64,000 nucleotides of DNA from NCBI RefSeq assembly GCF_009711135.1, contig NZ_WMIC01000006.1:186001-250000 (forward strand), read 5' to 3'. Below the pieces are notes generated by a model, which was not told where the DNA came from, did no database searches, and was given only the letters and a program-made list of their open reading frames with translations. The DNA is from Flavobacterium sp. LC2016-01 (GTDB taxonomy: Bacteria; Bacteroidota; Bacteroidia; Flavobacteriales; Flavobacteriaceae). Of this stretch, positions 367 to 3,071 are shown piece by piece. Numbering within the stretch: the first letter of the stretch is position 1; every line of letters starts with the position of its first letter. A program made the translations under genes and the position numbers.

Positions 367-1002
367 ATGTCATTATATAAAGATAAATTCAAAATCGATT
401 CAACTAGATTAAAGAATTGGGATTACTCAAGTGAAGCAGTCTATTTTATTACAATGGTTGCAAAAAATAGAGAATGTGTTTTTGGAACAATTGAAGATGA
501 TAAAATGATTTTAAACGATAATGGAAAGATTATTGAGACAGAACTTTTGAAATCAATTGCGATTCGTAAAAATTGGTTTTTCCATAATTGGGTTATTATG
601 CCAAATCATATTCATTTATTGATTGAAATTCAAAATAAAAACGAAATTCAAAACACAACGCATATCGTAGAGGCGCACAGCAGTGCGTCTCCGTCCAGCA
701 TATCGACAACAGAATGTGACACATCTTTGTCGACAAACGTTACGGAGACGCACAGCTGTGCGCCTCTACGTGACAATAGGGACGAAAAACAATCTGAATC
801 TAATTTTGGACGTAAACCAAAATCTATTTCATCATTTGTAGCAATTTTTAAATCGGTGACGACCAAACAAATAAATGGTACAAAATCCATTTGGCAGGAT
901 AATTATCATGATCACATCGTCAGAAATTATAAACGATTCGAAATAATTTATGATTATATTAAAAACAATCCGAAATCTTGGGAAACAGATTCTTTAAAAT
1001 AA
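367..1002 (+). CDS. REP-associated tyrosine transposase (RAYT, Y1_Tnp / IS200-like)
   Basis: 211 aa. The HUH motif is H81-x-H83 in PNHIHLLI, and the catalytic Tyr is probably Y180 in WQDNYHDHIVRN. These are the hallmarks of single-copy RAYTs, which mobilise REP palindromes. Residues about 100-135 are low-complexity (Ser/Thr-rich) and are encoded by two inverted REP-like palindromes (666-770). The conserved RKPKSISSF block resumes directly after them at residue 149. The frame is intact through the 105-bp (35-codon) insert. The gene ends 8 nt before the M1 peptidase start. It could still make active protein, since the insert sits in a linker that is normally variable, but this is inference. Confidence 0.85.
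   Translation: MSLYKDKFKIDSTRLKNWDYSSEAVYFITMVAKNRECVFGTIEDDKMILNDNGKIIETELLKSIAIRKNWFFHNWVIMPNHIHLLIEIQNKNEIQNTTHIVEAHSSASPSSISTTECDTSLSTNVTETHSCAPLRDNRDEKQSESNFGRKPKSISSFVAIFKSVTTKQINGTKSIWQDNYHDHIVRNYKRFEIIYDYIKNNPKSWETDSLK
666..770. repeat. Inverted REP doublet (REPIN-like) inside the RAYT coding sequence
   Basis: Left arm 666-694 and right arm 742-770 are 29-nt reverse complements of each other except for one mismatch at the centre. Each arm is itself a hairpin: GAGGCGCAC / GTGCGTCTC on the left and GAGACGCAC / GTGCGCCTC on the right, with 4-nt loops AGCA and AGCT. The spacer carries a further inverted pair, TCGACAA (703-709) and TTGTCGA (727-733). The total of 105 bp keeps the host reading frame. 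It is visibly more GC-rich than its surroundings. I saw no other copy in the window. Confidence 0.88.
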
Positions 1003-1010
1003 AATTTTCA

Positions 1011-3071
1011 ATGAAATATATCTTTTTACTTTTTACTGGATTTATTTTTGCACAACAAACTCAATTCGTCGATTTTAAATCGGTTAATGCGCAATTAACT
1101 TTAAATGCCAAAGAAAAATCAGTTTCAGGTACTGTTGATTACGGTTTTATGGTTTTAAAATCTATAGACACCATAAAAATTGATGCCAAAAACATGGAAT
1201 TTTCCAAAGTACAAATTGACAACAAAGACGTTGTTTTCGTTAATTCTGGGAAACAGCTGCAGCTTATTGGAAATTTTCAAAAAGGAGAAAATCATCTGAC
1301 TTTTAAATATACTGCAAAACCAAAACAAGCCTTGTATTTTGTTGATATTGAAGGAAAAGATGTTCAAATCTGGACACAAGGTCAAGGTCGATACACAAGT
1401 AATTGGTTTCCGAGTTTTGACGATGTTAATGAAAAAGTGATCTTCAATTTAGGTATATCTTATGACAAAGAGTATCAGGTTATTTCAAATGGAATTTTAA
1501 AAGATAAAACGCAAAAGGATAATTTATTTCATTGGCAGTACAAAATGGAAAAACCAATGAGTTCTTACGTTTTGATGCTTGCAGTTGGGAAATACGATAA
1601 AAAAAGTTTGAAATCGAAATCGAATGTTCCGCTTGAATATTACTTAGAAAATAAAGATGCGTCTCGTTTTGAACCTACATTTCGATATTCAAAACGTATT
1701 TTTGATTTTTTAGAAAAAGAAATTGGCGTTTCATATCCATGGCAAGTTTATAGAGAAATTCCGGTTCGAGATTTTTTATATGCCGGAATGGAAAATACAA
1801 CTTCAACGCTTTTTGCCACTCGATATGTAGTCGATTCAATTGGATTTACCGACAGAAATTATACAAACGTCGATGCGCACGAATTAGCGCATCATTGGTT
1901 TGGGAATTTAATAACCGCCGAAAGCAGTAAACATCACTGGCTTCAGGAAGGTTTTGCAACTTATTATGCTGCGCTTGCAGAACGTGAAATTTTTGGTGAC
2001 GATTATTTTTATTCTAAACTTTATGACACCGCACAGCAAATAAAGTTTGCTTCAAGAACCGATTCTATTCCGGTTTTGAATCCAAAAGCGAGTTCGCTGA
2101 CGTTTTACGAAAAAGGGGCTTGGACGCTTTTTGTTCTTCATGAATCAATTGGTGATAAAGCCTTTAAAAAAGCAATAAAAAGTTACCTGAAAAAATATGC
2201 CTATCAAATTGTAAATACAGAAGATTTCTTTAATGAAATTAAAAAGGTATCCGATTTTGATTTGGATAAATTCCAGAAAACCTGGCTGGAATCAACAGTT
2301 TTTGATACACCGACTGCGAATGCTTTGTTGAGTAAAAATAAAGCTATTCAGGTTAGATTGGAAGTTGATAAATTGAAGAAAACACCTTTAGCTGAAAAAA
2401 AGGATTTCTTTATAAAAACTTTAAATTCGGATGTTTATCATACAGTAAAAGAGTCAATTGTTGATCAATTAGAAAATGAGAAATACGAAGCAAAAAAAGA
2501 TTTACTGCTTTTAGCAATGCAGACAAATAATGTACAGATTCGTCAAACTGTTGCAGAAACTTTAACCAAAATTCCGGAAGATTTTAGAGCAGCATATGAA
2601 ACGCTGTTAAACGATCAATCGTATCAAACACAGGAAATTGCTTTGTACTGGCTTTGGAGAAATTTTCCAGATCACCGAAACGAATATTTGAATAAATCAA
2701 AAAATTGGATTGGTTTTAATGATTATAATCTTCGCACTTTGTGGCTTTCACTCGCGTTATCAACATCAAATTATGCTGATAATCCAGATGAACTTGTTGC
2801 CGAATTAATTGGTTTTTCGTCTACTAAATATGAAGCCACGACCAGACAAAATGCACTTGAAAAATTAATAGCTTTCAAAATTATTAACGATCAGGTTTTG
2901 AGTAATTTAGTTTCCTCCACAACGCATCATATGTGGCAGTTTTCAAAATTTGGAAGAGACACAATAAGAATGTTATTAAAAAATTCAGAAATGCGTGCCT
3001 CGTTTGAAAGAATTTTGCCTAATTTGACCCCCGATGAACAATTTCAATTGAACCGTTTATTGAAAGAGTGA
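1011..3071 (+). CDS. M1 family metallopeptidase (aminopeptidase N-like), secreted
   Basis: 686 aa from the ATG at 1011, which opens a signal peptide (MKYIFLLFTGFIFA, then QQ). The further upstream in-frame start would put extra residues before the signal peptide. GMEN at 259-262 is the M1 substrate-binding motif. H290-E-L-A-H294 with E313 gives the HEXXH-x18-E zinc site. The C-terminal half resembles the helical/HEAT-like domain of M1 enzymes. It probably trims peptides in the periplasm or at the cell surface. It begins only 8 nt after the RAYT stop and no clear own promoter was seen, so it may be read through from the transposase gene. Confidence 0.93.
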   Translation: MKYIFLLFTGFIFAQQTQFVDFKSVNAQLTLNAKEKSVSGTVDYGFMVLKSIDTIKIDAKNMEFSKVQIDNKDVVFVNSGKQLQLIGNFQKGENHLTFKYTAKPKQALYFVDIEGKDVQIWTQGQGRYTSNWFPSFDDVNEKVIFNLGISYDKEYQVISNGILKDKTQKDNLFHWQYKMEKPMSSYVLMLAVGKYDKKSLKSKSNVPLEYYLENKDASRFEPTFRYSKRIFDFLEKEIGVSYPWQVYREIPVRDFLYAGMENTTSTLFATRYVVDSIGFTDRNYTNVDAHELAHHWFGNLITAESSKHHWLQEGFATYYAALAEREIFGDDYFYSKLYDTAQQIKFASRTDSIPVLNPKASSLTFYEKGAWTLFVLHESIGDKAFKKAIKSYLKKYAYQIVNTEDFFNEIKKVSDFDLDKFQKTWLESTVFDTPTANALLSKNKAIQVRLEVDKLKKTPLAEKKDFFIKTLNSDVYHTVKESIVDQLENEKYEAKKDLLLLAMQTNNVQIRQTVAETLTKIPEDFRAAYETLLNDQSYQTQEIALYWLWRNFPDHRNEYLNKSKNWIGFNDYNLRTLWLSLALSTSNYADNPDELVAELIGFSSTKYEATTRQNALEKLIAFKIINDQVLSNLVSSTTHHMWQFSKFGRDTIRMLLKNSEMRASFERILPNLTPDEQFQLNRLLKE

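Follow-up and report, generated by a model that had tools for sequence, protein, structure and literature searches.

A complete REPIN of 105 nt (positions 666 to 770) lies in frame within the gene of its presumed mobilizer, a RAYT gene of Flavobacterium sp. LC2016-01. The element is conserved across species, it is constrained at the DNA level, and it matches the REPs found elsewhere in the genome. As an explanation, we consider it probable that the REPIN is a cis-linked cognate element, i.e., that the substrate hairpin of the enzyme has been inherited within a tolerant linker of the protein and is maintained as DNA. Unless labeled otherwise, positions refer to the window, which is the whole stretch of 64,000 nucleotides that was analyzed.

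Identity and neighborhood of the RAYT gene

The protein encoded by the RAYT gene scored 31.8 bits against the Pfam profile Y1_Tnp (cut-off, 23; E value, 1.7e-7), which places it in this family, and 60.9 bits (E value, 1.2e-16) against the NCBIfam profile REP_Tyr_transpos, a value below the equivalog cut-off of 80. The match to the latter profile was split into two stretches, of which the internal insert may be the cause. The motifs NHIH, IWQ, and YIKNNP of the protein agree with the pattern of subclass 2.4 (NH[IFV]H, WQ, and YIxNNP), and a variable insert containing in-frame REPs is located between β3 and αC, with the limits of strand and helix taken from a poor structural model. By these motifs and the insert, the protein can be assigned to the kind described as TnpA_REP subclass 2.4. 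The model itself had a mean pLDDT of 50, and the lowest block means, 23 to 27, were obtained for residues 101 to 140. In the alignment, the linker between the HUH motif and the tyrosine was very variable in length and in sequence across RAYTs; an earlier reading of the DNA without database searches, here called the sequence-only reading, had considered a tolerated linker insert, and the poor conservation of the linker is in accordance with this.

The translation of the gene downstream of RAYT displays an HExxH motif, and we take this gene to encode an M1 aminopeptidase. Among 16 named loci of relatives, 14 had the same upstream gene and 12 the same downstream peptidase gene, counts in which the filter applied may have hidden some neighbors; the shared neighbors presumably code for an ATP-pyrophosphatase-like protein and an M1-type peptidase, respectively. 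The core of the RAYT gene is under purifying selection, with dN/dS values of 0.07 to 0.12 in nine pairs; a dead gene was rejected for this reason, and the self-targeting dead end envisaged in the sequence-only reading is not supported. In a few relatives, the gene is no longer intact: the reading frame ends shortly past the REP in L137 and L135, and the C terminus is changed in L123.

Structure of the internal REPIN

REPINs consist of two REPs in inverted order, with their feet pointing outward and a shared spacer, and are dispersed in the genome. All of these properties, i.e., inverted REPs, outward feet, a shared spacer, and dispersed copies, were found for the segment 666-770 (Table 1). The inverted repeat 666-709/727-770 has arms of 44 nt that are 84% complementary, and the GTAG feet face outward (667-670, and CTAC at 766-769). 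When the outer 29 nt are compared, 666-694 versus 742-770 in reverse complement, a single mismatch is found, just as had been stated for the two hairpins from the sequence alone. The location of the doublet between the HUH motif (residues 81 to 83) and the conserved tyrosine (residue 197) and the preservation of the reading frame were likewise confirmed. The assertion that the segment occupies exactly 35 codons is correct for its length of 105 nt, but not for its alignment with the codons, as it begins at the third base of codon 100. Folded as a single strand, 666-770 was predicted to form one long hairpin, with -45.4 kcal/mol as DNA, versus -16.0 ± 2.7 kcal/mol for shuffled sequences (z, -10.9), and with -69.1 kcal/mol as RNA, versus -30.7 ± 3.6 kcal/mol for shuffled sequences (z, about -11).

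Table 1. Features of the RAYT locus, with positions in the window
Feature	Position	Strand	Basis
RAYT/TnpA_REP (Y1 HUH transposase), 211 aa	367..1002	+	Pfam and NCBIfam profiles, ORF, alignment
HUH motif, His81-Ile82-His83	607..615	+	Both His invariant in 14-row alignment
REPIN, in frame in the HUH-Tyr linker	666..770	+	Repeat search, folding, spacer comparison
First REP: GTAG foot and hairpin, encoding VEAHSSAS	667..691	+	REP sites, codon comparison
REPIN spacer with direct repeat TCGACAA (703-709, 730-736)	692..744	+	Resembles spacers of non-RAYT REPINs
Second REP, inverted, CTAC at the outer end; ETHSCAPL on the + strand	745..769	-	REP sites
Presumed catalytic Tyr197, in YIKNNP	955..957	+	Invariant in RAYT alignment
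Peptidase-like gene, first ATG 8 nt past the RAYT stop	1011..3071	+	ORF; neighbor common to relatives

Copies in the host genome and position relative to genes

In the host genome (5.24 Mb, 34 contigs), 28 distinct sites of the REP were found, whereas a control pattern gave 0. Two of the sites are those inside RAYT, which bears out the earlier view of a REP/REPIN unit residing in the gene of its presumed mobilizer, and the 26 outside it bear out the expectation of further copies in the genome. These 26 were judged intergenic; seven of them overlap ORFs that were dismissed as 5' extensions or as antisense, and one more touches a stop codon by one base. With random placement of the 28 sites, the number expected in the RAYT gene is 0.003. 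On the contig of RAYT, no other type-A site was detected within 3 mismatches; the REPs of this gene are internal only.

Across five genomes, the RAYT gene was occupied in all five, and 4 of the 71 non-RAYT sites examined were located inside genes: 0/18 examined in G075, which are part of its sites, 1/12 listed in G007, 0/8 in G138, and 3/7 type-D sites in G032. REPs are accordingly rare in other genes in four of the five genomes examined. In the genomes other than the host, some sites were judged by hand: L093 as a 5' extension, L095 and L099:2134 as ORFs lying under longer ORFs, and L099:1470 and L101 as merely touching the end of an ORF. A separate observation was made in G007, where an in-frame REP (near 1499 in L089:289-2199, minus strand) fuses two genes into an open frame of 637 aa; the fused genes are presumably trpF and trpB.

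One other copy in the host genome has the same spacer and is without the right-hand REP. Of the 150 genomes of the genus, 15 contained the REP end together with the spacer, and 11 of these contained it also or only outside RAYT; the gene context of such copies was examined for a single intergenic one, G000 C7:225958-226003, which shares 44/46 nt including the spacer. The idea that this copy had been copied out of RAYT was rejected, since the same spacer is found outside RAYTs in other genomes too, which is compatible with copying in either direction.

Internal REPs in RAYT genes of the genus and the phylum

RAYT matches were obtained in 50 of 150 genomes of the genus with a query that held the REP-encoded residues and may favor REP-bearing homologs, and the best 30 loci, the one of the window included, were read. 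An internal in-frame type-A REP was present in all 17 RAYT genes of the close group (the gene of the window included; L025 is truncated) and in all 16 named loci, which are assigned to Flavobacterium or Flavobacteriaceae and partly belong to the same species. The sequence-only reading had left room for a recent landing of the element and had proposed an alignment that might reveal homologs without the insert. The homologs do have the insert, and a recent one-off insertion is thus ruled out, since every close homolog carries the REP. REPs of the same type were found within 0.9 to 1.5 kb on each side of 3/17 close genes and of 7/13 others. One of seven hairpin types, which were defined from the same 30 genes, occurs in 29 of the 30 loci, with non-A types in the distant RAYTs; the remaining locus, L040, has weaker hairpins. 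Of these types, A to G, the genome-wide searches covered A, C, and D.

RAYT matches were obtained in 131 of the 296 genomes searched across the phylum. The best 29 new loci were taken, of which L176, L181, and L185 were left unparsed; L170 and L171 were already in the genus sample. Of the 26 parsed loci, all of them best-scoring matches and 6 of them from the same genus, 25 contained a linker hairpin that no more than 2 of 60 codon-shuffled controls equaled. The stems of these hairpins are of many different kinds and are read in at least two frames; in the remaining locus, L192, hairpins occur at the two ends of the gene rather than in the linker. A plasmid search with a type-D RAYT as query returned 3 records.

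Several genes display further arrangements. In L018 and L136, the whole REPIN-coding unit is repeated in tandem in the RAYT linker, with up to six REP sites per gene. In the RAYTs of L022 and L019, a half-REP peptide, VETHD or VETHN, is expanded in short tandem arrays, and the linker before IWQ contains a second REP in another frame. In F. hungaricum (L129:561-2774), twenty REP sites, arranged in pairs with a period of about 220 nt, are situated directly upstream of RAYT.

Constraint on the DNA of the internal REP

Synonymous change is nearly absent from the REP codons, and what is conserved is the DNA, not the peptide. When the same residue was encoded, the same codon was used at a frequency of 0.964 in REP1, i.e., the eight codons of the first REP (24 sequences, 1859 pairs), versus 0.629 in the core of the gene (29091 pairs), with the pairs drawn from 24 open genes of the group. 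The value for REP1 was reached by 0/140 eight-codon windows of the core and by 0/20000 random sets. For REP2, codon identity was 1.000 (9 sequences, 242 pairs). The codons retained in the REP are minority codons in the same genes, with GAG, GCG, and AGT accounting for 12%, 13%, and 8% of their synonymous sets, respectively, and residue changes occur mainly at the third codon and at the loop codon, which is where REPs vary. REP1 was located by a peptide pattern, which matched in 24/24 genes; the test omits L013, in which the start codon is unclear, the broken genes L025/L137, L123, and L135, and the four duplicates L126, L128, L129, and L133. Some cases stand against the constraint: REP1 is decayed in L014 and, in L021, in the first copy, and L022 and L026 have one stem mismatch each.

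Match between internal and genomic REPs

The internal REP usually matches the REPs of its genome in type and loop. Type-A REPs were found in 17/17 genomes with a close-group RAYT, versus 33/133 others (Fisher P value of 9e-10, which overstates independence because the genomes are related); in these 33 genomes, type-A REPs are thus present without a detected close-group RAYT. Type-C REPs occur in 5/150 genomes, among them both genomes read that have a type-C RAYT. Type-D REPs occur in 42/150 genomes and hence are not specific; again, both genomes read that have a type-D RAYT are included. In a hand count covering 9 of the 15 close-group genomes with external copies, the first internal loop was the commonest external loop among the sites listed in 8/9. 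In the ninth, G015, the internal loop was the second commonest outside, with 10 sites versus 11.

In G036 and G145, no type-A copy was present besides the internal ones within 3 mismatches of the pattern. The internal copies comprise one intact REP in G145 and, in G036, one intact REP plus one with a stem mismatch; G036 does have type-D REPs. A separate group of genomes, G004, G057, and G103, has up to 47, 49, and 42 type-A matches per strand, respectively, and no close-group RAYT was detected in them. Their REPs were perhaps left over after loss of the enzyme.

Interpretation and alternative explanations

We regard the REPIN as maintained as DNA because its synonymous sites are nearly frozen and because the type and loop of the internal REP follow those of the genome. 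The 105 bp represent a REPIN of the family that is scattered through the same genome. According to our proposal, the RAYT gene is vertically inherited and single of its kind in the genome, and the element is ancestral to the close group; it sits in a poorly conserved linker leading from the HUH strand to the next helix, where its translation is presumably tolerated. The gene would in this way carry the recognition hairpin of the enzyme in cis, a role thought to be played by flanking REPs in the case of other RAYTs. Enzyme and cognate REP would thereby remain linked, and specificity would drift in both together. We infer that RAYT may bind the single-stranded hairpin of its own gene and that the cis link may be a selected trait.

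A different view would be that the linker tolerates any in-frame insert and that the REPIN landed there once and has since been inherited without a function. The very variable length and sequence of the linker, the lowest confidence for residues 101 to 140 within a model that is poor as a whole, and the interpretation of the REP-bearing region as peripheral, perhaps with little impact, in the accessible part of Quentin et al. 2018 (PMC6006769) are all in line with such a passenger; synonymous divergence similar to that of the neighboring sequence would, however, be expected and was not seen, and hairpins recur in the linkers of many RAYT families with different stems, at two positions, and in at least two frames. 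We therefore consider a functionless insert to be quite improbable, and among the passenger, the preferred target, and the regulatory element discussed below, it is the only one clearly disfavored by the frozen synonymous sites. Still far less credible is a constraint on the protein, with the REP-encoded peptide as a functional part of RAYT: the pattern VE.H..AS recurs within the close group, but residues do vary, mostly at the third and loop codons, while unchanged residues keep identical codons, and in other RAYTs different hairpins are translated into unrelated peptides.

It is conceivable, although we would not presume it, that RAYT prefers its own gene as a target for REPs, by a cis preference or a target preference, and that copying from the genome refreshes the internal REP. 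The REPs occupy different places and frames, with the V-E frame used in linker 1, the R-D frame in linker 2, and type F located before IWQ. This variety, the tandem units of L018 and L136, and the agreement, in most cases, of the internal type and loop with those of the genome would fit this possibility, and copying from genomic REPs could also be the cause of the frozen codons. Refreshing from outside is nevertheless argued against by the lack of external type-A donors within 3 mismatches in G145 and G036, unless these were lost recently, and the position of the doublet is common to much of the close group, so that most internal copies look inherited rather than new. An autoregulatory role, in which expression is limited by the hairpin that the REPIN forms in the mRNA or by RAYT binding to its own gene, appears unlikely. 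The long RNA hairpin predicted, with its free energy far from that of shuffled sequences, speaks for it, and the constraint at the DNA level is compatible with it; number, position, and orientation of the REPs, on the other hand, vary by species (1 to 6 sites, in one or two linkers), which is odd for a tuned control.

Returning to the cis-linked cognate REPIN, we tentatively suggest, as a possibility rather than an expectation, that the RAYT frame serves as the master copy of the REP family, in which the substrate hairpin is selected over synonymous drift and enzyme and element form one heritable piece; this might act as a seed to restart the family where the dispersed copies have been lost, as seemingly in G036 and G145. 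A gene-internal REPIN kept at the DNA level would be a simple physical answer to the question of how REP and enzyme remain matched in the long term in this class, and it offers a system in which a recoded hairpin, with the protein left unaltered, could show directly whether the cis copy matters.

Comparison with known systems

REPINs were reportedly described by Bertels and Rainey in 2011 as inverted REP doublets; the element studied here is alike in this respect but lies inside a coding sequence instead of beside a RAYT gene. The arrangement as such is already known in kind, since Quentin et al. 2018 (PMC6006769) describe REPs that lie in frame inside tnpA_REP genes as a trait unique to subclass 2.4, in which, according to the accessible part of that paper, internal REPs are predominant and generally lie between HuH and Y. 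The same part equates subclass 2.4 with RAYT group 4 of Bertels et al. 2017. The likeness extends to the three motifs, the occurrence in Bacteroidetes, the in-frame REPs between HuH and Y, the β3-αC variable domain, and the presence of canonical and double-foot REPs, and the accessible part of PMC6006769 offers no categorical difference. What differs here is that a whole REPIN resides inside RAYT, that close relatives are mostly without flanking REPs within 0.9 to 1.5 kb, and that the codon constraint was measured, although the supplementary figures of that paper may hold some of this. As far as could be seen, the frozen REP codons, the match in type and loop, the two genomes without external type-A copies, and the spacer shared with REPINs outside are new; the codon-level constraint, the loop match, and genomes without external copies were not met with in the literature searched, which mostly excluded subscription papers and supplements.

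For other TnpA_REP proteins, recognition of the single-stranded REP and cleavage aided by GTAG are described in the accessible parts of two papers (PMC3733652, PMC8266576). The REPtron (Di Nocera et al. 2013, PMC3733652), as far as that accessible part goes, likewise combines a RAYT with GTAG-footed REPs, which there lie beside the gene and here inside the coding sequence. The same part of PMC3733652 deals with intragenic REPs and the RPE elements of Rickettsia, which resemble the present case as palindromic repeats located in frame in protein genes; there, varied host genes are affected, whereas here it is the gene of the presumed mobilizer.
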